Positions 1 to 43,004 of a stretch of 45,890 nucleotides of DNA are shown piece by piece. The stretch is from a virus: positions 1-45,890 of IMG/VR virus record IMGVR_UViG_3300042332_001503. One strand, 5' to 3'. Below the pieces are notes generated by a model, which worked only from the letters and a program-made list of their open reading frames with translations, was not told the origin of the DNA and made no database searches. Positions within the stretch are counted from its first letter, which is position 1. Each line of letters begins with the position of its first letter. The translations under genes and the position numbers were made by a program.

Positions 1-131
1 GTTAGGATTTCTGGTGGTGTGTTGGGGTTGCGTGCAACTCTACAACGAACATACAAGCTTTTATCTCGGGCAAGAATTGTTAGGATTTCTGGCGGTGTGT
101 TGGGGTTGTGGGCAAGTTCAAGTTTGTTCAT
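1..131 (-). CDS. LRV-repeat protein 1, C-terminus outside window
   Basis: Partial gene entering the window from the left: the ATG at 131 reads leftward for 43 codons without a stop. The product starts MNKLELAHNPNTPPEIL and holds almost two copies of the 26-residue leucine-rich-variant-like repeat seen in eight other genes here. Its first residues and the DNA encoding them nearly match the start of the LRV gene at 27861-28364, so these two are probably recent copies of one another. It begins one base after the stop codon of the gene upstream, as in an operon. The fold is expected to be an alpha-helical solenoid (family knowledge); the function is unknown. Confidence 0.85.
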   Translation of the reverse strand, partial: MNKLELAHNPNTPPEILTILARDKSLYVRCRVARNPNTPPEIL

Positions 132-132
132 C

Positions 133-591
133 TTATTGGATATGTGTGGGGGCATTATCGCTGAAATATTCATTCTTAATATGATCACCTAGAACTAAAC
201 CAAATCCCCCAAAGAATAGTGCAACAATTAGGGTTGCATGATATTTCTTTCTATTACCTTTTTCTAATAATTTTTCCGTACTTCCGGCAGTAATTTTCGT
301 CATCAACCAACCGCTTCCACAACCAAATATCGCCATCAACACGTATGGTGTAAATGACGCGAAAGCCCAAATAAAAAGGATCAGTGCGACTAAACTAACT
401 GTTCCATCTGGCTCAAATGATTGAATTTGAGATTCTGTGGCGGTTTGTCGTAAATTGCGGATTTGGGTCTTATCAACATTGTAGATTGTGCAAATTTGAT
501 CTTGTGCTCCGGCAAAGGTATTTGAATTTACTTCAACGCTTTGTAGACCAGAATTGCTTCCGAGCCATACATCCGCTTTGTAGTGTGCCAT
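133..591 (-). CDS. Small two-helix membrane protein, unknown function
   Basis: A 152-residue protein with a soluble N-terminal part of about 60 residues and two hydrophobic segments, near residues 64-92 (rich in A, F, L, I) and 118-136 (LIVALFFGGFGLVLG), separated by a basic loop containing KLLEKGNRKK. This suggests an inner-membrane protein with two spans. It sits between an LRV gene and a member of the FGPNYK family and is read in the same direction. I do not recognise the family. Confidence 0.7.
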   Translation of the reverse strand: MAHYKADVWLGSNSGLQSVEVNSNTFAGAQDQICTIYNVDKTQIRNLRQTATESQIQSFEPDGTVSLVALILFIWAFASFTPYVLMAIFGCGSGWLMTKITAGSTEKLLEKGNRKKYHATLIVALFFGGFGLVLGDHIKNEYFSDNAPTHIQ

Positions 592-592
592 T

Positions 593-940
593 TCAGTAAG
601 ACAGGTTTTGGGTTAAAGGCAAAAAAGTTAAAGAGATTCCAGATTCTAAAAGAATATGGCTTGCTACGATTTCGTTTTCACAATCGTTAAGAAAACGCCA
701 GACTTCCCTACTGACAATTGATTTTGCGGCTTCTCTACAGAGCCTTTCTGCATCTCTCCATGTGGAACCATGAAGTTTTCCACGTTTTTCCAAATGAACA
801 TCCAGTTGTTCCCATGAGAGACTATCCCAATAAATCCAGAAATTAATAAGAGTCTTATAATTTGGTCCGAAGTGGCACTCTGGGTTTGTTAGAACATCTG
901 GATTTCCCACCAGATTGCTGAGATGTTGAAGGTTGTTCAT
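593..940 (-). CDS. FGPNYK-family protein, copy A
   Basis: A 115-residue protein of unknown function and one of three paralogues in this window (others at 40972-41301 and 43644-44012). Shared features are a short N-terminus, a block GNPDVL...P then FGPNYKTLINFWIYWDS, a divergent middle, and a C-terminal block where copy A reads EIVASHILLESG then LTFLPL. I chose ATG 940 because MNNLQHLS lines up with the starts of the other two copies; the frame extends upstream only to GTG or TTG codons. It may be all-helical and cytoplasmic. No catalytic motif is visible. Confidence 0.7.
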   Translation of the reverse strand: MNNLQHLSNLVGNPDVLTNPECHFGPNYKTLINFWIYWDSLSWEQLDVHLEKRGKLHGSTWRDAERLCREAAKSIVSREVWRFLNDCENEIVASHILLESGISLTFLPLTQNLSY

Positions 941-980
941 AGGTTGCTGGCGTTTCACCAACTATAGTGGAAATTTTGCT

Positions 981-1418
981 CTACTGGTTATTGGGCTGTG
1001 ACACTTTATCAAGTGTCCGGTAAAACTCATAGGCTCTTGCAGTTTGAATGGCTTCTCGGGTTGCATTTGGATTTTTTTCAACACACCAACGAACCCACGA
1101 ATCTTCATCTCGGGCAAGAATTGTTAGGATTTCTGGTGGTGTGTTGGGGTTGAGTGCAACTTCCCAGCGAACATAATCATCCTCATCTCGAGCAAGAATT
1201 GTTAGGATTTCTGGTGGTGTGTTGGGGTTGTTTGCAACACAATAGCGAACATCCTCATCCTCATCTCGGGCAAGAATTGTTAGGATTTCTGGTGGTGTGT
1301 TGGGGTTGTTTGCAACACAATAGCGAACATCCTCATCCTCATCTCGGGCAAGAAGTGTTAGGATTTCTGGTGGTGTGTTGGGGTTTTGTGCTTGTTGCCC
1401 CTTTAACCGTTTGGACAT
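981..1418 (-). CDS. LRV-repeat protein 2
   Basis: A 145-residue protein with a short leader (MSKRLKGQQAQ), four full 26-residue LRV-like repeats of the form NPNTPPEILTILARDED-xx-VR-xx-VAx, and the family C-terminal cap NPNATREAIQ followed by ARAYEFY. The four repeats are almost identical in DNA at a 78-bp period. They differ mainly at the residues before VR (ED, ED, DY, SW) and after it (YC, YC, WE, WC). The ATG at 1418 lies inside one arm of a large inverted repeat (1415-1468). A preceding TTG in frame is less likely to be the start. Function unknown; the family usually makes right-handed helical solenoids. Confidence 0.85.
   Translation of the reverse strand: MSKRLKGQQAQNPNTPPEILTLLARDEDEDVRYCVANNPNTPPEILTILARDEDEDVRYCVANNPNTPPEILTILARDEDDYVRWEVALNPNTPPEILTILARDEDSWVRWCVEKNPNATREAIQTARAYEFYRTLDKVSQPNNQ
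999..1018. promoter_or_regulatory. GACA-N10-TGTCC dyad
   Basis: Inverted repeat with 7-bp arms (GACACTT / AAGTGTC) and a 4-base loop, inside the last codons of LRV gene 2. It has the same half-site spacing as the dyads at 17899, 34570, 43067 and 44070. It could be an RNA hairpin or a protein-binding site. It lies in coding sequence, so it may owe something to chance. Confidence 0.4.
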
Positions 1419-11849: not shown

Positions 11850-11854
11850 TGTTG

Positions 11855-12025
11855 TTACTTCTGTTTAGCTTTTTCTTCTTCCTCTTCAATGTGTTGTTGA
11901 AGTAAAGTTACATAGATTTCTCTTTCAAATGGAATCATATTTTCAACAAAGTCCGGAGGCCATTTTTGAAACTGAATAAGAGCAAACATTAGGCGATAAT
12001 AATTTTCTAAATCATTATACCTCAT
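11855..12025 (-). CDS. Small chaperone-like protein; possible -1 frameshift extension of gp26
   Basis: A 56-residue protein starting MRYNDLENYYRLMFALIQ and ending in an acidic-basic tail (EEEEEKAKQK). The core QKWPPDFVENMIPFEREI resembles the short second part of tail assembly chaperones (W-x-P-x-x-V then a helix). Its ATG at 12025 overlaps the gp26 stop as ATGA, and it ends 5 bp before the tape-measure-like gene. A T-run at 12034-12040 at the end of gp26 would place a -1 shifted ribosome in this frame (TAC GTC ACA ATG AGG). Confidence 0.75.
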   Translation of the reverse strand: MRYNDLENYYRLMFALIQFQKWPPDFVENMIPFEREIYVTLLQQHIEEEEEKAKQK

Positions 12026-12744: not shown

Positions 12745-12768
12745 AATTAACCAATAATAATTTCTAAT

Positions 12769-13463: not shown

Positions 13464-13464
13464 T

Positions 13465-14480: not shown

Positions 14481-14483
14481 ATA
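14476..14483 (+). promoter_or_regulatory. Late-promoter-like AATAAATA
   Basis: AATAAATA 24 bp before the gp48 ATG, overlapping the stop codon of the preceding gene. Confidence 0.45.
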
Positions 14484-14506
14484 TAATATAGTGGGAATTA
14501 TGTGTA

Positions 14507-15879: not shown

Positions 15880-16881
15880 ATGCCATTCTATTTTCGCACG
15901 ATTCCAAATCTAGACTACATTAATCCAGAGAAAACTTCTAGTATTTCTGATTACATTCAAATCAAGAATCTTTTCAGACGAGGTAGATTGAGAGAAGATA
16001 TTTTCGGAGATTTGGTCTACTTCACGAAATATAACATTGTAGGAAATGAAAGACCAGATCAGGTTGCGGAAAAATATTATAGCGATCCTTCACTTGATTG
16101 GGTTATTCTTTTATCAAATAATATTTTAGATGTAAGATCTGAATGGCCCCTGGATAATAATTCTTTTGATTCTGCAATGTTGGATAAGTATGGTTCTTAT
16201 GAGAATTTACATGGTGGCATTCATCATTACGAAACTATTGAGATTAAAAATTCCGATGGTATTGTTATGCTCCCATCCGGTATTAGAATGAAACCAAATT
16301 GGAAAACTAATGGAAACTTCGTTGAAGTTAATACTAAGAAAATCTTTCAGATATTTTGTGGAGATGGCATTACCCCAACTAATATTGCAAGTGTCACACT
16401 ATCAATTGGTATTCAGGGTCTAAAGATAGGCGATGAGATTAACATAAGCAACATCACTGATAATATTTTTAACGGGACTTTCCGTGTTACTGATATTCAA
16501 GATCCGTTCGGAACCGGAAATATTAGTGCATTTTCATATCAACTTTCATCTGTTCCTGATATTGCTAGTCCACCAATGAGTAATAGTAATCTAGAAGAAG
16601 CTGCATATAGTGGTGGAGTTTCGGGAAATTCTTATTACTTTGAATATACAGATAAGAATAGTACAATTAGGCTTGCGAGTTCTAAAGTCTTAACAGAAGT
16701 GAGCAATTATGATTATGAGTTAAATCTTAATAATAAGAAACGGGAAATTTATATACTGAAGCCAACTTATCTTGGTATCATTCTTAATGATGCTGAAGAG
16801 TTTAGTAGCTATAAGATAGGTGGTTCACAATATGTCAATGATACATTAAAAAGAGGAGAAAACAGTAGACTCTATTCGTGA
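15880..16881 (+). CDS. 53: Baseplate wedge protein gp53
   Basis: A 333-residue protein whose first 120 residues match gp53: MPFYFRTIPNLDYINP, IQIKNLFRRGRL, ERPDQVAEKYYSDPSLDWVI, LLSNNI and an EW-PL segment. T4 gp53 is 196 aa; this version has an additional beta-rich C-terminal region of about 150 residues (SVTLSIGIQGLKIGDEINIS), as in many cyanophages. The last 10 bp overlap an LRV gene read from the other strand, so transcription from both sides collides here. Confidence 0.85.
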   Translation: MPFYFRTIPNLDYINPEKTSSISDYIQIKNLFRRGRLREDIFGDLVYFTKYNIVGNERPDQVAEKYYSDPSLDWVILLSNNILDVRSEWPLDNNSFDSAMLDKYGSYENLHGGIHHYETIEIKNSDGIVMLPSGIRMKPNWKTNGNFVEVNTKKIFQIFCGDGITPTNIASVTLSIGIQGLKIGDEINISNITDNIFNGTFRVTDIQDPFGTGNISAFSYQLSSVPDIASPPMSNSNLEEAAYSGGVSGNSYYFEYTDKNSTIRLASSKVLTEVSNYDYELNLNNKKREIYILKPTYLGIILNDAEEFSSYKIGGSQYVNDTLKRGENSRLYS

Positions 16882-17516
16882 GTATTATAAAACTCGTAGG
16901 CTCTTACTGTTTGAATGATTTCTCTTGTTGAGTTGGCGTTTCCTTCAACACACATGCGAACACTCGCATGTACATCTCGGGCAAGAATTGTTAGGATTTC
17001 CGGAGGTGTGTTGGGGTTGTCTGCAACATTTCGGCGAACCCCCGAATACTCATCTTGAGCAAGAATTGTTAGGATTTCTGGTGGAGTGTTAGAGTTATAC
17101 GCAACTCCACAACGAACAAACACATCCTCATCTCGAGCAAGAAACGTTAGAGTTTCTGGTGGAGTGTTGAGGTTGCGTGCAACTCCACTGCGAGCATCCT
17201 CATCCTCATCTTGGGCAAGAATTGTTAGAGTTTCTGGAGGTGTGTTGGGGTTGTGGGCAACTCTACAACGAACATAATAATCCTCATCTCGGGCAAGAAT
17301 TGTTAGAGTTTCTGGTGGTGTGTTGGGGTTTTGTGCAACAGTCCAGCGAACACCCCCATCCTTATCTCGGGCAAGAAGTGTTAGGATTTCTGGTGGAGTG
17401 TTAGAGTTATACGCAACTCCACAACGAACAAACACATCCTCATCTCGAGCAAGAAACGTTAGAGTTTCTGGTGGTGTGTTGGTGTTGTATGCTAACAGAA
17501 GATTTTGGTCTTTCAT
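16872..17516 (-). CDS. LRV-repeat protein 3
   Basis: 214 residues made almost entirely of seven LRV-like 26-residue repeats plus the C-terminal cap (STREIIQTVRAYEFYNTHE). It has an internal 95-bp perfect DNA duplication (17068-17162 and 17380-17474), offset by exactly four repeat units, which shows that repeats were copied or shuffled recently. Start ATG 17516 overlaps the stop of LRV gene 4 as ATGA, so both form one unit. It converges on gp53 and overlaps its end. Confidence 0.85.
   Translation of the reverse strand: MKDQNLLLAYNTNTPPETLTFLARDEDVFVRCGVAYNSNTPPEILTLLARDKDGGVRWTVAQNPNTPPETLTILARDEDYYVRCRVAHNPNTPPETLTILAQDEDEDARSGVARNLNTPPETLTFLARDEDVFVRCGVAYNSNTPPEILTILAQDEYSGVRRNVADNPNTPPEILTILARDVHASVRMCVEGNANSTREIIQTVRAYEFYNTHE
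17068..17474 (-). repeat. 95-bp perfect direct repeat inside LRV gene 3
   Basis: Copies at 17068-17162 and 17380-17474 are identical over 95 bp, 312 bp apart (4 x 78). Flanking repeat units are less similar, so this is a distinct recent duplication or gene conversion and not just the background periodicity. Confidence 0.85.
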
Positions 17517-17839
17517 AATGTTGGATGCTCCTTATAAAACTCATAGGCTCTTACTGTTTGAATGATTTCTCTTGTTGAATTTGGGTTTCTTTCAACACAC
17601 ATGCGAACATCCCCATCCTTATCTCGGGCAAGAATTGTTAGGATTTCTGGTGGTGTGTTGGGGTTGTCTGCAACACAATAGCGAACAAACCAATTCCCAT
17701 CTCGGGCAAGAAACGTTAGAGTTTCTATTGGAGTGTTAAGATTTTCTGCAACGTGACAACGAACATAACCAACCCCATCTATAGCAAGAAGTGTTAGAGT
17801 TTCTGGTGGTGTGTTGGGGTTTTGTGCAACAGAATACAT
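17513..17839 (-). CDS. LRV-repeat protein 4
   Basis: 108 residues: a three-residue lead, three LRV-like repeats (variable residues VGY/CH, NWF/YC, DGD/MC) and the C-terminal cap NPNSTREIIQTVRAYEFYKE. It starts directly in a repeat (MYSVAQNPNTPPETL), as if cut out of a larger array. It lies downstream of the gp32 terminator and is the first gene of a two-gene LRV unit with LRV gene 3. Function unknown. Confidence 0.85.
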   Translation of the reverse strand: MYSVAQNPNTPPETLTLLAIDGVGYVRCHVAENLNTPIETLTFLARDGNWFVRYCVADNPNTPPEILTILARDKDGDVRMCVERNPNSTREIIQTVRAYEFYKEHPTL

Positions 17840-18901: not shown

Positions 18902-18950
18902 TTTGGAAGCTTTTTGAAATCAAAGGTTTACCAACCAGGAATATTTAGAA
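18902..18950 (-). repeat. 49-bp direct repeat, copy A (gp32 upstream region)
   Basis: Identical to 19585-19633 except one base (18930 vs 19613). On the minus strand it begins with TTCTAAATATTCC, which includes a late-promoter-like TCTAAATA, 79 bp before the gp32 ATG. With copy B it brackets LRV gene 5. Confidence 0.9.
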
Positions 18951-18958: not shown

Positions 18959-19555
18959 TTATTTCCGGTTTAGAATTGCTTCTGCCACAGAACAAACATA
19001 AGAATTCTCGTCTTGGGCAAGAACCGTTAGAGTTTCTGGTAGTGTTTGAGGGTTAATTGTAACTCTCCAACGAACATGCCAGTCTAGATCCCCTGAAAGA
19101 TTAATTAGTGTTTCTATTGTCGTACTACAATTGCCCGCAACTGTCATGCGAACATTCACAATCTCATCTTGAGCAAGAAATGTTAGAGTTTCTGGTGGAC
19201 TGTTGAGGTTGCGTGCAACTCCACAGCGAACACCAGAATCCTCATCTCGGGCAAGAATTGTTAGAGTTTCGGGTGGTGTGTTGGGGTTGTTTGCAACCTC
19301 ATAGCGAACACCCCAATCCTCATCTCGGGCAAGAATTGTTAGAGTTTCAGGTGGCGTGTTGGGGTTGCGTGCAACTCTATTACGGAGATATGAATCTTTT
19401 TCCTGATAAAGAGTCTTCAAGATTTCTGGTGAGGTTTCTGGATTTTCGGCTAGCTTAATATTCTGTTCAGTTTTTAGATTTTCTTCTGCGAGACGTTCGA
19501 GTGTCTCAAGGTCTTCGGTAGTTATTTCTGGTAGAATTATTTCAGTCATGTTCAT
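18959..19555 (-). CDS. LRV-repeat protein 5
   Basis: 198 residues. A unique acidic N-terminus (MNMTEIILPEITTEDLETLE...) is followed by six LRV-like repeats; the first and the last two are degenerate (ENPETSPEILKTLYQ; NPQTLPETLTVLAQ). It lacks the C-terminal cap found in five siblings. Start ATG 19555 (or 19549); the upstream TTG lies in a repeated promoter segment. The gene sits between the methyltransferase and gp32 and is flanked by a 49-bp direct repeat, suggesting insertion by duplication of the gp32 upstream region. Confidence 0.85.
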   Translation of the reverse strand: MNMTEIILPEITTEDLETLERLAEENLKTEQNIKLAENPETSPEILKTLYQEKDSYLRNRVARNPNTPPETLTILARDEDWGVRYEVANNPNTPPETLTILARDEDSGVRCGVARNLNSPPETLTFLAQDEIVNVRMTVAGNCSTTIETLINLSGDLDWHVRWRVTINPQTLPETLTVLAQDENSYVCSVAEAILNRK

Positions 19556-19584: not shown

Positions 19585-19633
19585 TTTGGAAGCTTTTTGA
19601 AATCAAAGGTTTGCCAACCAGGAATATTTAGAA
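19585..19633 (-). repeat. 49-bp direct repeat, copy B
   Basis: Second copy of the 18902-18950 sequence with one mismatch. Its left end on the minus strand includes the last codon and the stop of the methyltransferase gene (TTC TAA). Confidence 0.9.
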
Positions 19634-25139: not shown

Positions 25140-25426
25140 CGTTTCCAGTTTCTAGGGTTAATTTTTCCATTAGAATGCCCAATTTTATAAATATGATTTC
25201 CAAACCTATCATAATAAAGGTCAAAGACAGTTACCATTTTTGAAGAACGGCAGATGTCAATGCGATTTCCTTCGGTATCACTATACTCAACAATATGAGC
25301 GTCCGTAGGCAATTCATTAAGATTTATGTCATCTCTATTCACATCGCTCAATAGAATTTCGCAATGATAATTGCTAGGTAAAATGTTCAGCTCTTCGGTC
25401 GTCCACGGTTCGGACTTATTACTCAT
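25136..25426 (-). CDS. Conserved-type phage protein, unknown
   Basis: 96 residues: an N-terminal region (MSNKSEPWTTEELNILPSNY) and a compact beta-type second half with EYSDTEGNRIDICRSSKMV and YYDRFGNHIYKIGHSNGKI. Both ends overlap neighbours by ATGA. I cannot name the family. Confidence 0.65.
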   Translation of the reverse strand: MSNKSEPWTTEELNILPSNYHCEILLSDVNRDDINLNELPTDAHIVEYSDTEGNRIDICRSSKMVTVFDLYYDRFGNHIYKIGHSNGKINPRNWKR

Positions 25427-26130
25427 TTTTTATTCTCCATTTCTTTATAAAACTCATAGGCTCTTACAGTTTGAATGACTTCTCTGGTAGCGTTTGAGTT
25501 TCTTCCAACTTCATAGCGAACGTTCTCATTCACATCTCGGGCAAGAGTCGTTAAAGTTTCCGGTGGTGTGTTAGGATTGGATGCAACTCCACAACGAACA
25601 CCCACACTCTCATCTTGAGCAAGAAATGTTAGAGTTTCTGGAGGAGTGATGGAATTGATTGCAACCCGATAGAGAACATTAAAATCCTCATCTCGGGCAA
25701 GAATCGTTAGAGTTTCTGGTGGTGTGTTGGGGTTCCATGAAACTCTCCAGCGAACACCAACATCCTCATCTCGGGCAAGAATTGTTAGGATTTCTGGAGG
25801 TGTGTTTGGGTTTCGTGCAACCCCACAGCGAACATTCCAAACCCCATCTCGGGCAAGAATTGTTAGAGCTTCTGGGGGCGTATTGCGGTTGCGTGCAACA
25901 ATATAGCGAACACCCTCATGCTTATCTTGAGCAAGAAACGTTAGAGTTTCTGGGGGTGTGTTGGGGTTTCTTTCAACTCCACAGCGAACCCACTTATTTT
26001 CATCTCGGGCAAGAATTGTTAGGATTTCTGGCGGTGTGTTGGGATTGAGTGCAACTTCCATACGCTGTTGTGGATCTTTTTCTTCCAAGATTTTGGGTAG
26101 AGTTTCTGGAGAAATATCTAAACAATTCAT
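25423..26130 (-). CDS. LRV-repeat protein 6
   Basis: 235 residues, the longest uninterrupted LRV array in the window. A degenerate first repeat (ISPETLPKILEEKDPQQRME) is followed by seven clear 26-residue repeats and the cap NSNATREVIQTVRAYEFYKE. Residues before VR vary as NKW, HEG, VWN, EDVG, DFN, SVG, NEN, and those after as CG, YI, CG, WR, LY (here VL-YR), CG, YE. ATG 26130 overlaps the upstream stop (TGATG) and the stop overlaps the next gene (ATGA), so the gene is inserted without any spacer. The TTG at 26133 is rejected. Confidence 0.85.
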   Translation of the reverse strand: MNCLDISPETLPKILEEKDPQQRMEVALNPNTPPEILTILARDENKWVRCGVERNPNTPPETLTFLAQDKHEGVRYIVARNRNTPPEALTILARDGVWNVRCGVARNPNTPPEILTILARDEDVGVRWRVSWNPNTPPETLTILARDEDFNVLYRVAINSITPPETLTFLAQDESVGVRCGVASNPNTPPETLTTLARDVNENVRYEVGRNSNATREVIQTVRAYEFYKEMENKK

Positions 26131-27857: not shown

Positions 27858-27865
27858 TATTTATA
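27858..27865 (-). promoter_or_regulatory. Late promoter TATAAATA
   Basis: Exact T4 late promoter core on the minus strand, 23 bp upstream of ATG 27835 and overlapping the stop of LRV gene 7. Confidence 0.65.
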
Positions 27866-28364
27866 GGTCAAAGATTTTTCCTTGGGCTTGTTGTTTTAGT
27901 AGTTCTAATTCTTCTAGTTTTTGTTGGGTTTCATCTTTGTTGGAAATAGCACTCGTAACTTGTATTCTGAATCTTTCGTCATTGTCCAGGCAAATATTTA
28001 TTAATGCACCTAGAGGTGCATTAGGGTTTTCTGTAACTCTACACCGAACATCATCATTCTCATCTCGGGCAAGAATCGTTAGAGTTTCTGGTGGAGTGTT
28101 GGGGTTGTATGCAACTCTATAACGAACAATCGCTTCCTCATCTTGAGCAAGAAATGTTAGAGTTTCTGGAGAAGTGTTGGGGTTCCATGCAACTCTACAC
28201 CGAACATTAGCATCTTCATCTCGGGCAAGAATCGTTAGAGTTTCTGGTGGAGTGTTGGTGTTGCCCGCAACTTCATAGCGAACAGTAAAATACTCATCTT
28301 GGGCAAGAATTGTTAGAGTTTCTGAAGGGGTGTTGGTGTTGTAGGCAAGTTCAAGTTTGTTCAT
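27861..28364 (-). CDS. LRV-repeat protein 7
   Basis: 167 residues: MNKLELAYNTNTPSETL, four canonical LRV-like repeats (variable residues YFT/YE, DAN/CR, EAI/YR, NDD/CR), a fifth diverged unit (NPNAPLGALINICLDNDERF) and a non-repeat helical end (KLEELELLKQQAQGKIFDL) in place of the usual cap. Its ATG overlaps the stop of the Panacea-domain gene upstream by ATGA. The N-terminus matches LRV gene 1. A palindrome with 10-bp arms lies in the fifth unit (28002-28023). Confidence 0.85.
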   Translation of the reverse strand: MNKLELAYNTNTPSETLTILAQDEYFTVRYEVAGNTNTPPETLTILARDEDANVRCRVAWNPNTSPETLTFLAQDEEAIVRYRVAYNPNTPPETLTILARDENDDVRCRVTENPNAPLGALINICLDNDERFRIQVTSAISNKDETQQKLEELELLKQQAQGKIFDL

Positions 28365-29097: not shown

Positions 29098-29349
29098 TTA
29101 CTTCTCCATTTGTTTATAAAACTCATAGGCTCTTACGGTCTGAATTACGTTTCGGGTTGCATTTGGGTTTCTTTCAACTCCCCAGCGAACATCCCCAACC
29201 TCATCTCGGGCAAGAATTGTTAGGGCTTCTGGTGGCGTGTTGGAGTTGCCTGCAACTCTCCAGCGAACACAATAATCCTCATCTCGGGCAAGAATTGTTA
29301 GGATTTCTGGTGGCGTGTTGGGGTCCAATGCTTGTTCCTTTAAATTCAT
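29098..29349 (-). CDS. LRV-repeat protein 8
   Basis: 83 residues, the smallest intact member: a six-residue lead (MNLKEQ), two LRV-like repeats (variable YC/WR and VGD/WG) and the cap NPNATRNVIQTVRAYEFYKQ. Its start overlaps the upstream stop by ATGA and its stop is one base before MazG. Two repeats are short for a stable solenoid on its own, so it may act in complexes or be a remnant. Confidence 0.8.
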   Translation of the reverse strand: MNLKEQALDPNTPPEILTILARDEDYCVRWRVAGNSNTPPEALTILARDEVGDVRWGVERNPNATRNVIQTVRAYEFYKQMEK

Positions 29350-35823: not shown

Positions 35824-36578
35824 TGTGCTAAAATGCTATCAATAATTTCGTTGAATATACGAGTTTTATTCTCTAGTGGATCTGTATTACTCCTCCAATC
35901 TGAATGCCAATTCGTTGCAGCACGATAATGTAGAAACTTCTCATTTAGATGTAGTTCAAAATTATATCCTCTCGTTACAGCCTCATTCTGAAGTTCAATG
36001 TCATTGAAATGTGTTGGATAAATTGCATCAGTTTCCTTCATTGAAATATTATTCTTCTGAAAGTAATAGTATGTATGACCGCCAACATCGGTCAACTCTC
36101 CTTCAACACTTCCCAATGAGAAATCAATATCCAGGTCAATTTTGCTAATCTCTGGCATATTAAAGAACATAATACCATTCCAAATATATGTCACATGTCC
36201 GCGATATTGAGGAAGGCCACAAATCACGGCATCTTTGACATAATCGGAAATATCAAAATCATCAATCAAAAATAGATCCGAATCGCAGAAAAATACAATA
36301 TCATTCAGATGATTAATTCTTATAATATTATCATAGGACCATTGCACCGTATCGGCGCAAGCCTGAGCCGGATCCATAAAGGTTGTTCTTTCTGGCTTTC
36401 GGTAATATTGTAGACCACTTTTGGAACAGATGTCTTTGAACTGTTTGGTTATATTTGGGTCAATTGAATCATCTACGATGTGAAATTGAAAATCATTTTT
36501 TAGAAACTTCTCAAACAGTTTGTTTTGTAATATTACAAAATCTGGCCTATTGACGACAGAGGTAAAAATATGAATCAT
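35820..36578 (-). CDS. Putative GT-A glycosyltransferase
   Basis: 252 residues from MIHIFTSVVNRPDFVILQNK, with FFCDSDLFLIDDFDISDYV (DSD like a DxD metal motif) and WNGIMFFNMPEISK. It looks like a nucleotide-sugar transferase, but the family is not clear. ATG 36578 overlaps the epimerase stop as ATGA; an earlier in-frame start is rejected. Confidence 0.7.
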   Translation of the reverse strand: MIHIFTSVVNRPDFVILQNKLFEKFLKNDFQFHIVDDSIDPNITKQFKDICSKSGLQYYRKPERTTFMDPAQACADTVQWSYDNIIRINHLNDIVFFCDSDLFLIDDFDISDYVKDAVICGLPQYRGHVTYIWNGIMFFNMPEISKIDLDIDFSLGSVEGELTDVGGHTYYYFQKNNISMKETDAIYPTHFNDIELQNEAVTRGYNFELHLNEKFLHYRAATNWHSDWRSNTDPLENKTRIFNEIIDSILAQ

Positions 36579-37468
36579 AGCTGACCTCCAATCCATTCTG
36601 TCACATCAACTGTTGGACTCCAATTTAATACTTCTTGAATTTTTTGAATGTTTGCATAAGAGTGAACGACCTCACCAGACCTTTCGGGTAAGAATGTCAG
36701 ATTATCCGAAATAAGAGCTGCAATATTTTTAATGGTTATGGCTTTTCCGGTTCCAACATTAAAAACCTCCCCGTATTCCTGAAGTTGTTTTGTTGTTGCC
36801 AAAACGTTAGCATTTACCACATCTTTGACGTTGACAAAATCTCGTCGCTGTAGCCCGTCTCCAACGAGAGTGAGCGGTTCACCGTTAGCCCGCTGTCTCA
36901 AGAAAATACCAATAACAGGTGCATAACTTCCAGATGTTGGTTGTCTATCGCCATAGACGTTAAAATATCTTAGAATTACAGTTTTTAGACCATAAAGATT
37001 ATAGTACATTTGACACAACTGCTCACCCGAATACTTTGAGATTGAATAGGTGTTCATGCAATTAACCTCTAGATCTTCGGAGTTTGGTAGAAATGCAACG
37101 TCACCATAAACCGCCGAGGTTGAAGAGAATACAAATCGTTCAATTCCATATTTACGTGAGGCATCTAGAACATTAAGAGTTGAGAGAATGTTATTTTGCA
37201 TTGTCTCTCTTGGGTTTTCAACACAAAAGGGAATTGAAATTTCGGATGCCAGATGAAAAACGTTTGTTGCATTTTCAAAATGCTCTTCAAATTGATTGAA
37301 GTATGCTAAATTTGCCCTAATATATGTTGCCTTGTCATTAAAGAAATATTCAGTTCTTGAGGCTGAACATTGATTATCAATAACCAGAACTTCGTGTCCC
37401 AGTTCAACCAATTTATCTACAAGATGTGACCCAATAAAACCACAACCACCTGTAACAATACTTTTCAT
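36575..37468 (-). CDS. NAD-dependent sugar epimerase/dehydratase
   Basis: 297 residues, extended SDR. NAD motif TGGCGFIG (G7, G10, G13), catalytic SST (about 115-117) and YSISK (Y141, K145), and the substrate part RYFNVYGDRQ. It resembles UDP-glucose/UDP-GlcNAc 4-epimerases or dTDP-glucose dehydratases. In this operon, supply of UDP-Gal or UDP-GalNAc is the natural guess. Confidence 0.88.
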   Translation of the reverse strand: MKSIVTGGCGFIGSHLVDKLVELGHEVLVIDNQCSASRTEYFFNDKATYIRANLAYFNQFEEHFENATNVFHLASEISIPFCVENPRETMQNNILSTLNVLDASRKYGIERFVFSSTSAVYGDVAFLPNSEDLEVNCMNTYSISKYSGEQLCQMYYNLYGLKTVILRYFNVYGDRQPTSGSYAPVIGIFLRQRANGEPLTLVGDGLQRRDFVNVKDVVNANVLATTKQLQEYGEVFNVGTGKAITIKNIAALISDNLTFLPERSGEVVHSYANIQKIQEVLNWSPTVDVTEWIGGQL

Positions 37469-38220
37469 TATACTAATCTCGTTGGAACAAAATAACCCGG
37501 AATATCATTAACATCTCGTCTACTTATTAGCTGACGAAAGGGTGACTTAAACTCTTCATTGATTTTATAGAAATTTTGATCATCCTTCAAAACTGATTGG
37601 TAGAATTCTTCAGCATTTTCAATATCTATTGAATTTTCTGAGAGTTTGCCTGTAGTCACTGCTGACCATTCGTATTGTCTCAATAGTGGTTCGTCTAGAG
37701 CATAAACATTGAAATATTTCTGATTCTCGGCAAATCCAATGTCAATATGATTTTCTATTTCGTAACCATAGTAATGTGCAATTTTTGCACACGTTCTAAT
37801 ATATTCGGATGAATAATAAAGTATGGCATGAGTTGCTAACATATTGTAAACTCTTACACATTCTGTTTCGGTCTTTGATGTATGAACATAAGGCCCAGAA
37901 TGATTTAAGTATCTACCCCAATGAGATATTCCCAAATAAACAGCATCAGCATTCTCGGGTATATCTATTGTTCCGTTAAAATCTTTATTAAGAGCACAAT
38001 CGTCTTCTAAAATTATTGCCGGTCCAATAAGATCAGAGAGGATTTTATAATGAGAGCGAGCACAGCCAACAATTCTACCGGATGGATGTTTAATTGCAGG
38101 AACACGAAAAATTGTGCTGAATCCCATTTCTATCAGCATCGTTTCAGTTCTTTTTCTCTTCTCAACCTCTTCATCAAGATTGATATAATAAACCGGAATA
38201 TTCCTTAAATCTAACTTCAT
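37468..38220 (-). CDS. GT25-like protein, paralogue 1
   Basis: 250 residues: MKLDLRNIPVYYINLDEEVE, VGCARSHYKIL, AIILEDDCALNKDF, DAVYLGISHWGRYLNH, IENHIDIGFAENQKYFNVYA. It is clearly paralogous to the gene at 38918-39574 and more distantly to 35026-35823. EDDC stands at the place of the EDDVD motif. Probably a glycosyltransferase acting on the same glycan. Confidence 0.8.
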   Translation of the reverse strand: MKLDLRNIPVYYINLDEEVEKRKRTETMLIEMGFSTIFRVPAIKHPSGRIVGCARSHYKILSDLIGPAIILEDDCALNKDFNGTIDIPENADAVYLGISHWGRYLNHSGPYVHTSKTETECVRVYNMLATHAILYYSSEYIRTCAKIAHYYGYEIENHIDIGFAENQKYFNVYALDEPLLRQYEWSAVTTGKLSENSIDIENAEEFYQSVLKDDQNFYKINEEFKSPFRQLISRRDVNDIPGYFVPTRLV

Positions 38221-38921
38221 TGGCGAACTTCACTATGATTTTTGTCAAGAGCCAAAATCTTTACGGGGAAAGGAACATGCCATCCGTGTGGATTATAAAA
38301 AGCGGCCTCGGGAAAACAATATGATGGATTAAGTTCAATAGTTGGAGGATTGTCTATAAGATAACGATTCATATGAGATTCATCGTGCCATTCTGCAATG
38401 ATGTTATTGGTAAAATCTTTCTCAATGTTATTGACGATCTCTTCGGACATCTTTAGGAAATACTCAGGTTTACCACCATTGAAACCTCCAGCATAATACA
38501 TTTTACCATCACCAACCGAGACATATGCGGTTGATTTTGGATTGCGTTCATATGAAAACTGAGCATTATCTTTAAACCAGAATCCGGGGTGTTGAGTGGC
38601 GACCAAATTCCCTAAAATTTCGTCCCCAACTTTACCATCAATTCTCATATCTACATCAATATAGAAACAATAGTCAAACTGTGAAATATATTCTCTTTCC
38701 TTCAAGAAATAATGATACCTTTTTAGAGTTGGTATTGGCCAGGGTTCATGTTCAATTTGAGAGATTTTAACATTATCTGAGCACTCTTCAATTTCGTGAT
38801 CAGTAAATACCAAAGCTGAAATATCATGCCCATTCAAAAAGTTAGATTCAATTGAATCTAGCAGTGGTTTAACAAATTTAATATACTTGTTGGTCGCAAT
38901 ATTAAGAATACAAATTTTCAT
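38217..38921 (-). CDS. GT6 family glycosyltransferase (ABO blood group type)
   Basis: 234 residues. It aligns by eye with the mammalian ABO/alpha-1,3-galactosyltransferase family: YIDVDMRIDG (DxD at 89-91), LVATQHPGFWF, FSYERNPKSTAYV, KMYYAGGFNGG (141-150) and AEWHDESHMNRYLID (E181 in the catalytic position). GT6 enzymes transfer Gal or GalNAc alpha-1,3 to a fucosylated galactose. ATG 38921 overlaps the upstream stop by ATGA. A GT6 gene in a cyanophage is known from P-SSM2 (recollection). Confidence 0.9.
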   Translation of the reverse strand: MKICILNIATNKYIKFVKPLLDSIESNFLNGHDISALVFTDHEIEECSDNVKISQIEHEPWPIPTLKRYHYFLKEREYISQFDYCFYIDVDMRIDGKVGDEILGNLVATQHPGFWFKDNAQFSYERNPKSTAYVSVGDGKMYYAGGFNGGKPEYFLKMSEEIVNNIEKDFTNNIIAEWHDESHMNRYLIDNPPTIELNPSYCFPEAAFYNPHGWHVPFPVKILALDKNHSEVRQ

Positions 38922-39574
38922 CTTATTGGGTATGGGTAAAATTGAAGTGGCTCTATACTCATACATTCTGTATGATTAAATGAAGTGAGACTATGTTTAG
39001 TTCCAAGGTCATTGCTGGTTTGATAAAATAATGGATTATTCAAACTATAAACATTAAAGAATCTTTGTATCTCTGCGAACCCAATATCCTGATAATTTTT
39101 AATCACGTATCCGGCATGATGTGCAACTTTAGCGCACATTTCTATATAAAAATCGCTCAAATAAACAACCGAATGTCCTCCAAGCATATTATATATCCGT
39201 AAAAGATTGGAATGTTCTTCAAACTCGTCGTATTGAATATATTGTCCATTGTGGCCATTCATTCTACCCCAGGAAGATATTCCCAAATAAAGAGCATCTG
39301 CATCATCGGGCAGTTCAACTATTGGTTGAAAATTTTCTTCATATAAAACACAATCATCTTCAAAAAGGATGAAAGGTGCCCTAAAGGTGGTAAGTGCTTT
39401 ATGGTGAGCCTTGGAACATCCAGCAACATGATTATCGGAGTCTAAAACCCCTTCAGATCTTTCAATGGTTTTAAACCCCATACTAGAAAGCATTGAACTT
39501 ATTGTTTCATTTTTTTCAGTATCTTGTTCAAGATTTATATAAACGGCTGGAATTTCTCTTAAGTCAATTTTCAT
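38918..39574 (-). CDS. GT25-like protein, paralogue 2
   Basis: 218 residues from MKIDLREIPAVYINLEQDTE; VAGCSKAHHKALTTF, FILFEDDCVLYEENF, DALYLGISSWGRMNGHNG, QDIGFAEIQRFFNVYSL. A tandem duplicate of 37468-38220, separated by the GT6 gene. It overlaps the FkbM gene by 11 bp. The same transferase role is inferred. Confidence 0.8.
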   Translation of the reverse strand: MKIDLREIPAVYINLEQDTEKNETISSMLSSMGFKTIERSEGVLDSDNHVAGCSKAHHKALTTFRAPFILFEDDCVLYEENFQPIVELPDDADALYLGISSWGRMNGHNGQYIQYDEFEEHSNLLRIYNMLGGHSVVYLSDFYIEMCAKVAHHAGYVIKNYQDIGFAEIQRFFNVYSLNNPLFYQTSNDLGTKHSLTSFNHTECMSIEPLQFYPYPIR

Positions 39575-40187
39575 TCTTACTCTTAATATACAGTGCATCT
39601 CCCCAGGTATCACCAACCCATTCGGTTTCAACCCGGTTAAAGTTATAAGGTTTTAAAAATTCATCAAGTTGCTCAACTAGAGCATTATTTTCATATACTT
39701 CATCTCGGTTCACTTCACAATAAACATAATCAACAAATTTTAAAGTTTCAGTTGATCCTTTAAGAACTTCAAGCTCATATCCCTGAACATCCATATTGAT
39801 AAAATTATAGTCTTTGTAATTATAATCATCTAACTTGGATAATATCACAGCCTCGGTTTCATTAAAGGTTATATTTGGATATTGATCTAAATGTATTTTT
39901 GGTTTTAAGATTGAACTGCTTTCCTGTTGATTACTACTTAAAAACATTTCAACTTTTCCGCTACCATTACCCAGGGCAACCTGATGGCCGATTATATTCA
40001 TATTAAATTGTGTGGCTCTCTGCTCTAAAACCCTAAAGTTTGCCGTTAATGGCTCAAATAAGACTATACTTGGAATATTGTTTAAACTATACTCTTCTAA
40101 TTCTTCACCGTAATGAGCGCCAATATGAATGATACCCGTTATACTCATATTATATTTTTTATACAGGTCCGAAAAATTTATTAACAT
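39564..40187 (-). CDS. FkbM-type methyltransferase
   Basis: 207 residues from MLINFSDLYKKYNMSITG. SAM-binding segment IIHIGAHYGEELEEY, SIVLFEPLTANFRVLEQRA, the FkbM motif FINMDVQGYELEVLKG, and a C-terminal YVYCEVNRDEVYE. It probably O-methylates a sugar of the glycan built by its neighbours. The ATG overlaps the GT11 stop (TAATG). Confidence 0.87.
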   Translation of the reverse strand: MLINFSDLYKKYNMSITGIIHIGAHYGEELEEYSLNNIPSIVLFEPLTANFRVLEQRATQFNMNIIGHQVALGNGSGKVEMFLSSNQQESSSILKPKIHLDQYPNITFNETEAVILSKLDDYNYKDYNFINMDVQGYELEVLKGSTETLKFVDYVYCEVNRDEVYENNALVEQLDEFLKPYNFNRVETEWVGDTWGDALYIKSKNEN

Positions 40188-40975
40188 TACAAAATCACCC
40201 AAGACTCCCTATATATGCCAGAATGATCCTTGTCGGACAGTGATGAACCGAACCACAGTTTAGGGGCAACCGTTCTTTTACTTTTAGCCAAATAGCTGCC
40301 CCACCACGAAAAGGAAGAGTTACAGATAATATGATAAGAACACATACTCTGTAGACACAAATCAATTGCGGTTGTATTATTCTCAGATATTAAGAATCTA
40401 TCGCCTTCAAAAAGTTTCTGACCCTGGCACCACTTATAATCATCCGAGAACACCATAACTGGTAAGTCTTCGTCAAACTGACTCAAGGCTTCTTCATAAT
40501 AAGACATTGGCTGAAGAGGATGATTTGGATTACTTATATAATCTCCTCGTCTAATGTGAAGTGAAATATATTCTTTGTCTTTTATGAGTTCTTTACACGA
40601 ATTTAGAATCTCATTTGAAAATGTGAAATCTTCTCGGATCTCATCTTCAATACCTTCAAAGTATTTCTCGTTCTGGAAATACCCCAGAAGATTTGTATTA
40701 TCTGGGCAAGTGTTGAATAATTTTTCGTCAAAATTGAATGTTGATTCAGTGATCGGAGTATAGTCTTTCATACTATACTCCACGTTCTTCAGATCAAATG
40801 TATTATGAATATTAGCATCTGAATGTCTGACATTTAGATCAATTTGACCACAAACATTCGGATGTGGAATACAAAAATTGAAACCACGATTTCGGGCAAT
40901 TCCCTTAAGAGATGCAAACTGAAACATCTGATTGCCCAGGCGCCCAAGATTTGTTAAGTTATTAAACGAAATCAT
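40187..40975 (-). CDS. GT11 alpha-1,2-fucosyltransferase-like
   Basis: 262 residues. GT11 motifs: LGRLGNQMFQFASLKGIAR (10-28), YISLHIRRGDYISNP (about 140) and ICNSSFSWWGSYLAKSKRTV near the C-terminus. Such enzymes add L-fucose in alpha-1,2 linkage to galactose, making the H-type structure that GT6 enzymes extend. First gene of the glycan operon, coupled to the FGPNYK gene upstream by ATGA. Confidence 0.9.
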   Translation of the reverse strand: MISFNNLTNLGRLGNQMFQFASLKGIARNRGFNFCIPHPNVCGQIDLNVRHSDANIHNTFDLKNVEYSMKDYTPITESTFNFDEKLFNTCPDNTNLLGYFQNEKYFEGIEDEIREDFTFSNEILNSCKELIKDKEYISLHIRRGDYISNPNHPLQPMSYYEEALSQFDEDLPVMVFSDDYKWCQGQKLFEGDRFLISENNTTAIDLCLQSMCSYHIICNSSFSWWGSYLAKSKRTVAPKLWFGSSLSDKDHSGIYRESWVIL

Positions 40976-41301
40976 AGGTTTTCAAGAAATGGTAAAAATG
41001 TTAAACATTCACCGGAATCTATAATAATATGGGCTGCCATTATTTCTAGTTCAATATAATAAAAACCATAGTCTGGTATATTCATTACATTAAAATGGCT
41101 CTGGATGCGTGCGAAACTATCTGGCGGAAAATGTTTTGAGAAGTAAGTGTCCTTCTGATTTTCAGTAAAACTTTCCCAATATATCCATAAATTAAGAAGG
41201 GTCTTATAATTTGGCCCGAAAAATTTTTCAGGCTCTGACAAGACTTCTGGATTTCCTATCATGCATCTGAATTGTTTATGTCGCTCTGAGATGTAATTCA
41301 T
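40972..41301 (-). CDS. FGPNYK-family protein, copy B
   Basis: 109 residues: MNYISERHKQFRCMIGNPEV, PEKFFGPNYKTLLNLWIYWE, and end EIMAAHIIIDSGECLTFLPF. Paralogue of 593-940 and 43644-44012. ATG 41301 overlaps the previous stop by ATGA, which fixes the start; the frame extends further upstream but that part is inside the membrane protein gene. Function unknown. Confidence 0.75.
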   Translation of the reverse strand: MNYISERHKQFRCMIGNPEVLSEPEKFFGPNYKTLLNLWIYWESFTENQKDTYFSKHFPPDSFARIQSHFNVMNIPDYGFYYIELEIMAAHIIIDSGECLTFLPFLENL

Positions 41302-41528
41302 TTTGTTATCAAGAGTTGAATCAGTTTGTATCCTTCCATTGCAGCAAAGAATGCCGCAATCCCTATTCCATCCCACATTTTGTGACGATAAAAAGATGGA
41401 AGTAATAATGCACCACCAATGAGCTTCAAGACTAGACCCAATTTTGGGTCAGCATATAGAAGTATGCCATACCCGATAATTAAAAGAAAATTACCGGCCC
41501 AGCGTAATGTTGTCGTATGAACATTCAT
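41298..41528 (-). CDS. Small membrane protein
   Basis: 76 residues with two or three hydrophobic segments (about 9-25, 29-45, 53-72; for example AGNFLLIIGYGILLYADPKL). Overlaps the upstream gene by 38 bp. It may sit in the host inner membrane; role unknown. Confidence 0.65.
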   Translation of the reverse strand: MNVHTTTLRWAGNFLLIIGYGILLYADPKLGLVLKLIGGALLLPSFYRHKMWDGIGIAAFFAAMEGYKLIQLLITK

Positions 41529-41754
41529 TTTTAAGATATGCCGGCTGTCCTATAAGAAGCTTTGCATATTCCGGGTCTTCCATTGCATAAGAACACTGAA
41601 CACCATTATCAAAGAGAACTGAATCTCTCCAGGTGTTATAAATCGGGTGTTTCGTTTGCATTCTGTAATCCGGTTTACCATTATGGAATATTTCGCCTTT
41701 AATAACAAAACGTACACCGTTTGCCTCAAGAAGAATCTTAGGTTGGTTACTCAT
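41491..41754 (-). CDS. Small protein, unknown
   Basis: 87 residues: MSNQPKILLEANGVRFVIKG, then HPIYNTWRDSVLFDNGVQCS and PEYAKLLIGQPAYLKNEC. Beta-rich. Starts right after the upstream stop. Not recognised. Confidence 0.6.
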   Translation of the reverse strand: MSNQPKILLEANGVRFVIKGEIFHNGKPDYRMQTKHPIYNTWRDSVLFDNGVQCSYAMEDPEYAKLLIGQPAYLKNECSYDNITLGR

Positions 41755-41982
41755 CTAGATTATTACCTCAATGCCGAGTTCTTCCGAAATGAGATTCAAA
41801 ATCATAATGTAATCGGCTTCAATTTCACCATAGAACACCACGTCGCCTCGTTCATCAAAAAATTTAAGAATTTTCTTCCAAAGTTTTGGTTTGTCAATGG
41901 GGAGAATGACTTCTCTTTCAAGTGCTCTCCGTAGCGTGAAACTTTCTTTACGAAACTTTTCGGAAAAAGATTGTTCAGACAT
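41755..41982 (-). CDS. Small protein, unknown
   Basis: 75 residues: MSEQSFSEKFRKESFTLRRA, then IDKPKLWKKILKFFDERGDV and a hydrophobic end. It follows LRV gene 9 by about 30 bp. Not recognised. Confidence 0.6.
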   Translation of the reverse strand: MSEQSFSEKFRKESFTLRRALEREVILPIDKPKLWKKILKFFDERGDVVFYGEIEADYIMILNLISEELGIEVII

Positions 41983-42011
41983 ATGTAGCTTTTTGTTGTT
42001 TAAAATAAAGA

Positions 42012-43004
42012 TTAGTTGAGATTTGTCAAGATGCTCTTAAGATCTTCATCCTGACTCGTGGTCAGTAGTTTCTTGAGAGCCTCATACTGTTTTGTGGTTA
42101 CCTTAAGCTCTTTGAGTGAAATGTAATTGGGGTTGCGGGCAACTCCCCAGCGAACATCCCCATCCTTATCTCGGGCAAGAAGTGTTAGGATTTCTGGTGG
42201 TGTGTTGGGGTTTTGGGCAACTCCACAGCGAACATCCCCATCCTTATCTCGGGCAAGAAGTGTTAGGATTTCTGGTGGTGTGTTGGGGTTTTGTGCAACT
42301 CTATAGCGAACACTCCTATTCTCATCTCGGGCAAGAATTGTTAGGATTTCTGGTGGTGTGTTAAAGTTACACGCAACTCCCCAGCGAACATCCCCATCCT
42401 TATCTCGGGCAAGGAGTGTTAGGATTTCTGGTGGTGTGTTGGGGTTTTGTGCAACATAACAGCGAACATCCTCATTCTCATCTCGGGCAAGAAGTGTTAG
42501 AGTTTCTGGAGGAGTGTTGGGGTTTTGTGCAAGATCTTTCCGTTCTTGATGTGGAAGTTTACTAAGATCGGGAGTTACCTTAAGCACTTTGTCTGGATGT
42601 GCAGATTTGTAGACTGGATGTGCAGTTTTGTAGCCTGCGCACGCTGCCGCAGCCGTGTGCCCAACAGGCACGCCACAGCGAACCGCGTCACGGTGAATTG
42701 CATCAAGCTCTATAACACTCGGACCCTCCCCCTCCTTCAAGGTGGTGCGGGCGATAAGTCTCACAACCACATCTTCATCTCGGGCAAGAAGTGTTAGGAT
42801 TTCTAGTGGCGTGTTGGGGTTATATGCAAGGTCTTCCCGCTCTTGAAGAGGAAGTTTACTAATATCGGTGGTGTGAGCATAAAAAGCCCTGCTGGCTGCT
42901 TCGAACGCATTGTGCCAATCTGAGCCCAATAGGGCATGGGTGTCGGTCTGGCGAAGCTGTAGCAACCGGGACAGGGCGGTGCGAATGTCTGGAGTGTAGT
43001 TCAT
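42012..43004 (-). CDS. LRV-repeat protein 9, chimeric
   Basis: 330 residues, the largest member. Residues 1-45 (MNYTPDIRTALSRLLQLRQT...) and about 93-143 (DAVRCGVPVGHTAAAACAGY, YKTAHPVYKSAHPDK) are unlike the other members, and their DNA is clearly richer in G+C than the surroundings. Two headers of the form D(I/L)SKLPxQERxDLAxNPNTP introduce one LRV unit and then an array of five. The end (KQYEALKKLLTTSQDEDLKS) replaces the usual cap. A strong sigma70-type promoter lies upstream, so early expression is likely. Confidence 0.85.
   Translation of the reverse strand: MNYTPDIRTALSRLLQLRQTDTHALLGSDWHNAFEAASRAFYAHTTDISKLPLQEREDLAYNPNTPLEILTLLARDEDVVVRLIARTTLKEGEGPSVIELDAIHRDAVRCGVPVGHTAAAACAGYKTAHPVYKSAHPDKVLKVTPDLSKLPHQERKDLAQNPNTPPETLTLLARDENEDVRCYVAQNPNTPPEILTLLARDKDGDVRWGVACNFNTPPEILTILARDENRSVRYRVAQNPNTPPEILTLLARDKDGDVRCGVAQNPNTPPEILTLLARDKDGDVRWGVARNPNYISLKELKVTTKQYEALKKLLTTSQDEDLKSILTNLN
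42594..42635 (-). repeat. 21-bp tandem duplication in LRV gene 9
   Basis: Two adjacent 21-bp units with a few differences, encoding YKTAHPV and YKSAHPD. Located in the GC-rich, non-LRV part of the gene. Confidence 0.7.

Follow-up and report, generated by a model that had tools for sequence, protein, structure and literature searches.

Leucine-rich repeat variant genes with hypervariable arrays as a candidate repertoire of protein binders in a probable T4-like virus

The DNA analysed here (hereafter 'the window') is the IMG/VR virus record IMGVR_UViG_3300042332_001503, which comprises 45,890 nucleotides and is classed as linear. The window probably belongs to a T4-like genome of greater size: relatives of its gp32 occur in records of 243 and 250 kb (80% and 58% identity, respectively). 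The viruses probably infect cyanobacteria. A preliminary description had reported nine genes of a single family resembling leucine-rich repeat variant (LRV) repeats, all on the minus strand. We located all nine (g1 to g9, Table 1) at essentially the same coordinates, with every unit on the minus strand, and comparison with Pfam bears out the family assignment: PF01816 (LRV) was the top family for 9/9 proteins (E 4.5e-9 to 6.4e-52), each of which exceeded the 21.6-bit cut-off of the profile. Pfam gave 36 PF01816 repeat matches in the window, and a matrix trained on 36 units taken from the same nine genes detected 40 units in the window, compared with 0 after a single mononucleotide shuffle of its sequence. 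The genes contain from 2 to 11 or more units of 26 residues; Pfam named no domain besides LRV, and no NACHT/NLR architecture, in the nine proteins.

Table 1. Positions of the nine LRV genes and of the direct repeat around g5 in the window.
Feature	Position	Strand	Basis
g1, LRV gene truncated by the contig edge	1..173	minus	Pfam LRV, E 2e-10
g2, LRV gene, 4 units and C-cap	981..1418	minus	Pfam LRV
g3, LRV gene with 7 units, paired with g4 and downstream of it	16872..17516	minus	Pfam LRV
g4, LRV gene, 3 units	17513..17839	minus	Pfam LRV
49-bp direct repeat, copy downstream of g5	18902..18950	minus	one mismatch to the other copy
g5, LRV gene with its own N-cap, directly upstream of gp32	18959..19555	minus	Pfam LRV
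49-bp direct repeat, copy upstream of g5	19585..19633	minus	one mismatch to the other copy
g6, LRV gene, 7 units, within the overlapping stop/start junction of its neighbours	25423..26130	minus	Pfam LRV, junction DNA
g7, LRV gene, 4 units and conserved 49-residue tail	27861..28364	minus	Pfam LRV
g8, LRV gene, 2 units (8 and 4 in relatives)	29098..29349	minus	Pfam LRV
g9, LRV gene, 6 units and N-terminal region without assigned fold	42012..43004	minus	Pfam LRV

The frame of g1 opens at an ATG at position 173 and has an internal ATG at 131, the start given previously, and g3 and g4 overlap by ATGA. The genes g2 to g4 adjoin baseplate genes, and LRV genes also lie among replication and accessory genes. 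Neighbouring genes include those for a DarG-like macro protein and a SocA/Panacea protein. No TM-like segment was detected in 90 LRV frames. In PADLOC-DB, 0/5 of the LRV proteins searched (five of the nine) had a significant match, and neither PADLOC nor Pfam placed a direct defence label on these five, save for a weak endonuclease match to g7 (0.004), which was the best obtained.

The preliminary description had also noted that the conserved parts of the repeat are almost identical in DNA between loci, and this was the case: over 36 units, codon 7 is GAA, codon 12 is CTT and codon 24 is GTT in 36/36 each, codon 15 is GAT wherever it encodes Asp (35/35) and codon 14 is CGA wherever it encodes Arg (27/27). 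What had been missed is that hypervariable codons, at unit positions 17-19, 22, 23 and 26, are interspersed with this conserved DNA. Among the 199 units of the near clade, 173 have a distinct set of residues at positions 17, 18, 19, 22, 23 and 26; because some contigs are near-copies of each other, this diversity is not inflated by near-copies. In the record G023 alone, 89 distinct sets occur among 95 units.

To see how the arrays differ between relatives, we compared the window with three records that are 97.2% (G010), 96.2% (L009) and 98.1% (L013) identical to it outside the arrays. Repeat number and variable residues of orthologous arrays are almost wholly different, and the gene ends persist. 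When each window unit was paired with its best DNA match in the orthologous array, a counterpart with at most one mismatch in the variable set was found for only 2/21 units in G010, 2/13 in L009 and 0/13 in L013. Unit numbers at shared sites (window first) are 7/11/9/11 for g6, 2/8/4 for g8, 4/7 for g2, where the variable residues differ in G010, and 4/4/4 for g7; the g3/g4 site has 10 units in the window, 5 in G010 and 6 in G019, and the site equivalent to g1 in G010 holds an array whose 6 units are spread over two coupled frames. Even at g7, where unit number is constant, comparisons of alleles over the 24 variable codons gave 19, 21 and 15 nonsynonymous and 0 synonymous changes, compared to 1, 1 and 2 nonsynonymous changes in the 49 codons of the tail.

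The same turnover occurs in a second lineage. G007 and G022 are ~93% identical to G023 in aligned flanks and share with it 12 syntenic sites, of which 11 are occupied in both; 49/56 units have no unit in the orthologous array within one mismatch of the six variable positions. Whole genes are also present or absent at given sites: g5 is absent at the corresponding place in G010, where the 49-bp repeat that flanks it in the window exists in single copy, the N-cap gene of g5 recurs at other places in contigs of L048 and L031, and the g6 site is empty in 29/37 locus rows having both flanking genes. In a relative that is ~80% identical, three of the site regions are likewise occupied. It had been considered beforehand that relatives might share the gene set and its locations, with divergence that is old and locus-specific, or that the genes might show frequent stops. 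Several sites are indeed shared, but their content has been replaced at 96-98% identity, and only 1 of 126 distinct stop-bounded LRV frames from 17 sources, the G020 array at the g7 site, appears to be frameshifted. Of the 68 distinct arrays with at least three units, 12 recur letter for letter in two or three contigs from different IMG datasets, which argues against random assembly chimeras; shared reads or collapse of identical units are possible. A single copy of an identical unit distinguishes L018 from L020.

Selection appears to act differently on the two kinds of codon. In 47 disjoint close pairs, variable codons had 88 nonsynonymous versus 6 synonymous differences and framework codons 64 versus 53. 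A counting test for amino-acid change gave P values of 1e-5 (codon 19), 8e-4 (26), 1e-3 (14), 4e-3 (22), 8e-3 (18) and 2e-2 (23), and codon 17 misses P 0.05; only codons 14, 19 and 26 remain significant after Bonferroni correction for 26 codons, and the test assumes a tree that recombination violates. Conversely, codons 1, 4, 5, 13 and 21 show a deficit in amino-acid change (P<1e-4 each). The framework DNA is lineage-specific: its synonymous difference is 0.11-0.21 within the clade of the window versus 0.37-0.71 to other lineages, and 0.14 within G004 versus 0.40-0.58 to others, the signal being weak for some records (G014, 0.34 within versus 0.35 to L032).

These patterns bear on how the arrays came about, for which recent amplification or ongoing gene conversion had been proposed. 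Units do seem to be exchanged or homogenised, but the differing content of orthologous arrays does not fit a simple recent amplification. Units do not group cleanly by gene or by site: the gene that holds a unit also holds its nearest neighbour in 12/40 cases in the window (4.5 expected), 11/34 in G010 (4.1), 6/82 in G007 (2.7), 18/95 in G023 (3.6) and 1/74 in G004 (2.9). Direct amplification of one gene was thus rejected as the whole story, since nearest neighbours are only partly within the gene and orthologous sites differ. Identical pairs of variable blocks in different arrays exceeded a column shuffle both for codons 17-19 (152 versus 50 expected) and for codons 22-26 (50 versus 8.4 expected); the blocks are thus shared above chance, which is no proof of exchange because the shuffle ignores common descent. 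For this test and the selection counts, 15/199 units were dropped as near-copies of other contigs (the arrays of L019, L052, L020 and L011, and one of L021). Two arrays inside G023 share 141 bp at 97.2%; only 3 pairs of arrays share at least 100 bp at 97% or more, and recently moved long tracts are therefore rare and their donors mostly unseen.

The predicted structure places most of the variable positions on a common surface. The model of g6, the one well-modelled LRV protein (pLDDT 95.3), is an alpha-solenoid with two short helices per unit, and the variable positions fall mostly along one of these helices. The closest solved folds by Z are the alphaRep binders 6bzx and 4zv6 (Z 17.2), and 1lrv follows with Z 15.1 and an rmsd of 3.4 over 197 residues; in Foldseek, 1lrv ranks second (E 2.4e-6), and the sequence match to 1LRV has an E of 5e-8. 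For g9, the single-sequence model (mean pLDDT 64.5) has low quality beyond the repeats, and no fold could be assigned from it to the N-terminal region. The phage proteins share their 26-residue unit and profile, and g6 also its predicted fold, with the LRV family and 1LRV. The LRV protein of Azotobacter has an N-terminal 4Fe-4S cluster domain. What distinguishes the genes described here is a free-standing, multigene phage repertoire with hypervariable arrays, for which the literature searched contains no described phage counterpart.

The closest likenesses are the fungal HNWD families of WD-repeat genes and the artificial alphaRep libraries. According to PMC1805685, the repeats of the HNWD/NWD NLR family of Podospora anserina (het-d, het-e) evolve in concert, vary in number and have few surface codons per repeat under diversifying selection. 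Here too, units are closer within a lineage than between lineages (weakly for G014 and L032), few surface codons appear to be under diversifying selection (three pass Bonferroni correction) and repeat number is polymorphic at orthologous loci. However, the fungal WD40 propellers are the sensor part of NLR immune receptors, whereas the phage proteins are free-standing alpha-solenoids without NACHT or effector; by analogy, the phage genes resemble HNWD in evolutionary mode and are not members of that family. The alphaRep library randomises repeat positions 18, 19, 22, 23, 26 and 30, according to PMC3754942, and so follows the i, i+1, i+4, i+5, i+8 spacing that is also seen among the natural variable positions of the phage units, although the match was made by position numbers, not superposed residues, and is partly a numbering matter. 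The alphaRep repeats are man-made, HEAT-like and 31 residues long, whereas the LRV units are natural and have 26 residues.

The 243-kb record G001, a close gp32 relative, has 0 LRV genes, and the repertoire is therefore dispensable for some relatives. Among 50,697 named phage records, LRV-like matches were found in 1 record with g6 and in 2 with a G004 gene, the phages being Moorella phage MTATph1 and Vibrio phage vB_VmeM-32; among 10 long LRV proteins scanned, 2 are PcfJ-LRV fusions, both in one other phage. A single scan for a cellular donor across 84,980 species genomes yielded 11 loci with 31-48% identity, none of them a near donor. Literature searches that combined leucine-rich repeat variant with either phage or cyanobacteria, or used PF01816, listed no paper about LRV genes of phages among 20 of 23 and 6 of 6 titles (most subscription papers lie outside the coverage), and PMC7824862 and PMC7159879 do not contain the term LRV.

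Overall, with moderate confidence, we favour the interpretation that the LRV genes encode a repertoire of cytoplasmic protein binders that is shuffled by recombination, evolves under diversifying selection and is probably directed against variable host (defence) proteins. The earlier suggestion of a set of binding proteins is compatible with this. Each LRV protein would be a small, free-standing cytoplasmic alpha-solenoid in which helix A and the hydrophobic core are fixed and the exposed face of helix B (18, 19, 22, 23 and 26, plus 17) forms the binding surface. The framework DNA, nearly identical in dozens of units, would allow homologous recombination, the presumed route of exchange, to insert, delete or exchange units inside a gene, from gene to gene and from phage to phage, whole genes would enter or leave between core genes, and selection for new surfaces would retain working combinations of variable residues. 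The ligands would be proteins rather than other molecules, and the likeliest targets would be variable host proteins, above all defence proteins, which may be bound and neutralised during infection.

A binder repertoire whose targets are rival phages, satellites or plasmids, as in superinfection exclusion, would have the same anatomy and turnover, and the number of LRV genes varies between close relatives as that of a competition locus might; we consider this unlikely, as the DarG-like macro and SocA/Panacea neighbours suggest, by association, a host-facing role. Slightly less probable is that the genes are recombination-prone repeat cassettes, selfish or close to neutral, whose spread and drift involve no binding function, as their insertion and loss between core genes, variable copy number, complete absence from some relatives and one apparently frameshifted copy might indicate; against this stand the strong framework constraint, the frames kept open with 1 suspect in 126 and the concentration of amino-acid change on one helix face. 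The few variable residues per unit on one face, the varying unit number and the long homogeneous arrays would also suit a modular nucleic-acid reader like TALE or PPR, in which these residues specify a base, but the proteins, with a median pI of 5.0-5.7 and a median charge of -1.4 to -6.4, are acidic, and their variable residues are diverse rather than a few fixed pairs, as the G023 units illustrate, which makes such a reader improbable.

A shade more improbable is that the proteins are virion-associated adhesins that attach to host surface receptors through their variable face: variable receptor binding is a common phage need and three of the genes adjoin baseplate genes, but the genes are also scattered among replication and accessory genes, they are small and many per phage, and no tail domain is recognisable. 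Diversity-generating retroelements are a phage-associated route to hypervariable binding proteins. That one of these, or a similar targeted mutagenesis, made the variable codons in place of mutation and shuffling is the least probable explanation: codons 17 and 19 have T as third base in 93% and 91% of units while their first two bases vary, as an AAY-type template would give, and the LRV-rich record G004 has a reverse transcriptase, but RVT_1 had no match in 19/20 records, including the window and G007 (several being fragments), codons 18, 22, 23 and 26 have no AAY-like third base, selection favouring amino-acid change by itself likewise spares third bases, and such retroelements change one variable region whereas whole units and unit numbers change here.

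More tentatively, and with slightly less than even confidence, the repertoire of binders may be the virus counterpart of a somatic-style receptor repertoire, in which a clade-wide pool of alpha-solenoid units is continually reshuffled into the 9 to 26 binder genes of each genome or fragment, giving each lineage its own specificities against variable host defences, so that the design principle of alphaRep would have evolved naturally. If the binder interpretation is true, phages own a modular, fast-evolving protein-recognition repertoire on a solenoid scaffold, which would give viruses a new means of keeping up with variable host defences and would supply stable, cysteine-tolerant binders of natural origin by the thousand. 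Alleles from near-identical phages would then be expected to differ in partner, and the partners of each allele would offer a route to unknown defence proteins.

All nine genes of the window (g1-g9) that the preliminary description had ascribed to an LRV-like repeat family were borne out by Pfam (9/9 frames, 36 LRV matches). Their 26-residue units follow the consensus NPNTPPExLTxLARDED-xx-VR-xx-VA-x, in which the framework codons are almost invariant and positions 18, 19, 22, 23 and 26 are near saturation: over all unit pairs among 199 units from 43 arrays, pN was 0.66, 0.58, 0.52, 0.61 and 0.71 at these positions, 0.34 at position 17 and 0.11 in the framework. This pattern of variability by position recurs in four other viral records (G004, G007, G023 and G014). 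The structure of g6, predicted from an alignment of 18 rows of proteins from the window's clade (mean pLDDT 95.3), has helices at unit positions 6-12 and 18-26, and it follows from the spacing of the variable positions, rather than from model coordinates, that they lie on the exposed face of helix B.

Relatives at a range of identities to the window were retrieved through gp32 and g6. Outside the arrays they are 98.1% (L013), 97.2% (G010), 96.2% (L009), 87.7% (G019) and 79.6% (G020) identical to the window, and in close relatives the proteins neighbouring shared LRV sites are 82-100% identical. At the shared sites the interior of the LRV genes is replaced and the N- and C-ends are kept: best-match units with at most one variable-position mismatch to the window numbered 2/21 in G010, 2/13 in L009 and 0/13 in L013, the surviving units being late units of g6. 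A direct codon count was possible for g7 (three alleles, four units each), where 19, 21 and 15 of the 24 variable codons had changed, all nonsynonymously. The framework (80 codons) held 16, 9 and 14 nonsynonymous and 15, 11 and 10 synonymous changes, and the conserved tail (49 codons) 1, 1 and 2 nonsynonymous and 2, 2 and 3 synonymous changes; since synonymous change in the framework exceeds that in the tail, the sequences point to replacement of g7 units rather than mutation in place. A second lineage, comprising G007 (125 kb, 82 units in 26 frames), G022 (46 kb, 43 units) and G023 (179.5 kb, 95 units), with 93% mutual identity in aligned flanks, served as an independent replicate. Here 11 of 12 syntenic LRV sites were filled on both sides of the comparison (G007 and G022 versus G023), with unit numbers of 11/5, 4/4, 9/11, 2/9, 5/3, 3/3, 3/4, 5/9, 3/8, 6/9 and 5/6 (3/0 at the empty site), and 7/56 units had a counterpart in the orthologous array with at most one mismatch over six positions, with 6/56 having one elsewhere in G023 (our count from the same output).

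Amino-acid change is in excess at the variable codons, both by close unit pairs and by a counting test; these are simple counts, made on units that recombine. Synonymous differences in the framework are small inside each lineage and large from one lineage to another. Within the window clade, units of one phage show no added likeness (framework synonymous difference 0.21 within the window versus 0.17 to L009), and the pool of units therefore seems to be clade-wide. Direct traces of recent transfer were few (three array pairs).

Between gp32 and the methyltransferase gene, g5 is absent from 15/15 locus rows holding both (including overlapping pieces of one contig), ten with gaps of 80-133 bp and five carrying other inserts (824-1553 bp). 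A pair of 49-bp direct repeats, mismatched at one position, brackets g5 in the window, and G010 has a single copy. A counterpart of g5, recognised by its N-terminal part (114 residues at 82%), is found at other places in the L048 and L031 contigs. The g6 gene is absent in 29/37 rows, its neighbours lying 0-39 bp apart, and the eight filled rows represent five contigs. It lies between genes with overlapping stop and start codons, and such overlaps are kept on both sides; ATGA or TGATG overlaps occur in 35 of the 46 LRV frames closely trailed by another. In distant relatives (gp32 50-54%), LRV arrays end 98-142 bp before the gp32 match at the nine loci measured, some from the same contig. Other relatives are without LRV genes: no LRV match was obtained for 6/20 records searched, including G001 (243 kb) and G003 (250 kb).

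The window is part of a T4-like phage, with what we take, from their sequences, to be baseplate, gp32-type single-strand binding protein, PhoH-like and ThyX-like genes, and with PHROG matches for an AdoMet decarboxylase and a DNA helicase loader. The named records nearest to its gp32 are Synechococcus phages (53% to phage B23), and the host is by inference cyanobacterial. Photosystem reaction-centre matches, of which the window has none, were found in LRV-bearing G011 (locus L037), whose array has the window clade's C-cap. Further afield, a profile scan (A2) of viral contigs gave 141 encoding stretches, of which 72 loci were kept. LRV matches occurred in 18/18 records next searched, the highest counts being 75 (G023) and 49 (G025). 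Among named phages, one record matches g6 (1e-5) and two match a G004 gene (1e-3). LRV repeats also lie within long proteins of some other viruses, two with a PcfJ domain, which is found in proteins thought to enter the cell with injected phage DNA; a literature search on PcfJ in injected phage proteins found no paper.

Positions of further features in the window and in related records
Record	Position	Feature
Window	593-961, 40972-41376, 43644-44012	Three dispersed copies of a second paralog family (…FGPNYK-LLNFWIYW…), two of them adjoining g2 and g9; no match for two copies against Pfam and two against PHROG
Window	28361-28843	Protein with a SocA/Panacea domain, immediately upstream of g7
Window	31765-32256	Macro-domain protein, possibly anti-DarT (PHROG phosphatase 6.9e-45; PADLOC DarG 2.9e-7; Pfam Macro under its cut-off)
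Window	35026-40975	Glycosyltransferase-like and sugar-enzyme-like gene block, e.g. fucosyltransferase-like and nucleotide-sugar epimerase-like frames (read by eye)
G011	46202-48016	Photosystem reaction-centre matches broken into pieces, some (across G011, G009 and G002) with internal stops; psbA-type genes may here contain introns or insertions
G009	112682-115985	As for G011
G002	104201-105744	As for G011
G025	9648-13473	At least three neighbouring long LRV frames of 8, 20 and 24 units (36-kb contig)
G004	314-973	Reverse transcriptase at end of LRV-rich phage contig
G020	14068-14700	Array at g7 site
L041	3402-4598	Split array
L048	922-1953	Split array

We propose that the LRV genes would act as a repertoire of binders. 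Their targets are likeliest to be proteins, because the products of 90 LRV frames are acidic and have no TM-like segments, the window-clade LRV proteins resemble the artificial binder library alphaRep, and LRV arrays resemble the fungal HNWD family in mode of evolution. Counting against the binder reading, the G020 array seems frameshifted ahead of its C-cap, and the L041 and L048 arrays run in four frames with overlaps of 16-25 bases and restarts directly after the C-cap; these split arrays may be coupled genes or decay. If the genes do encode binders, our best guess is that the repertoire would be directed at host defence, since whatever is bound has to change at the same pace as the proteins that bind it; use against competitors is the main alternative.
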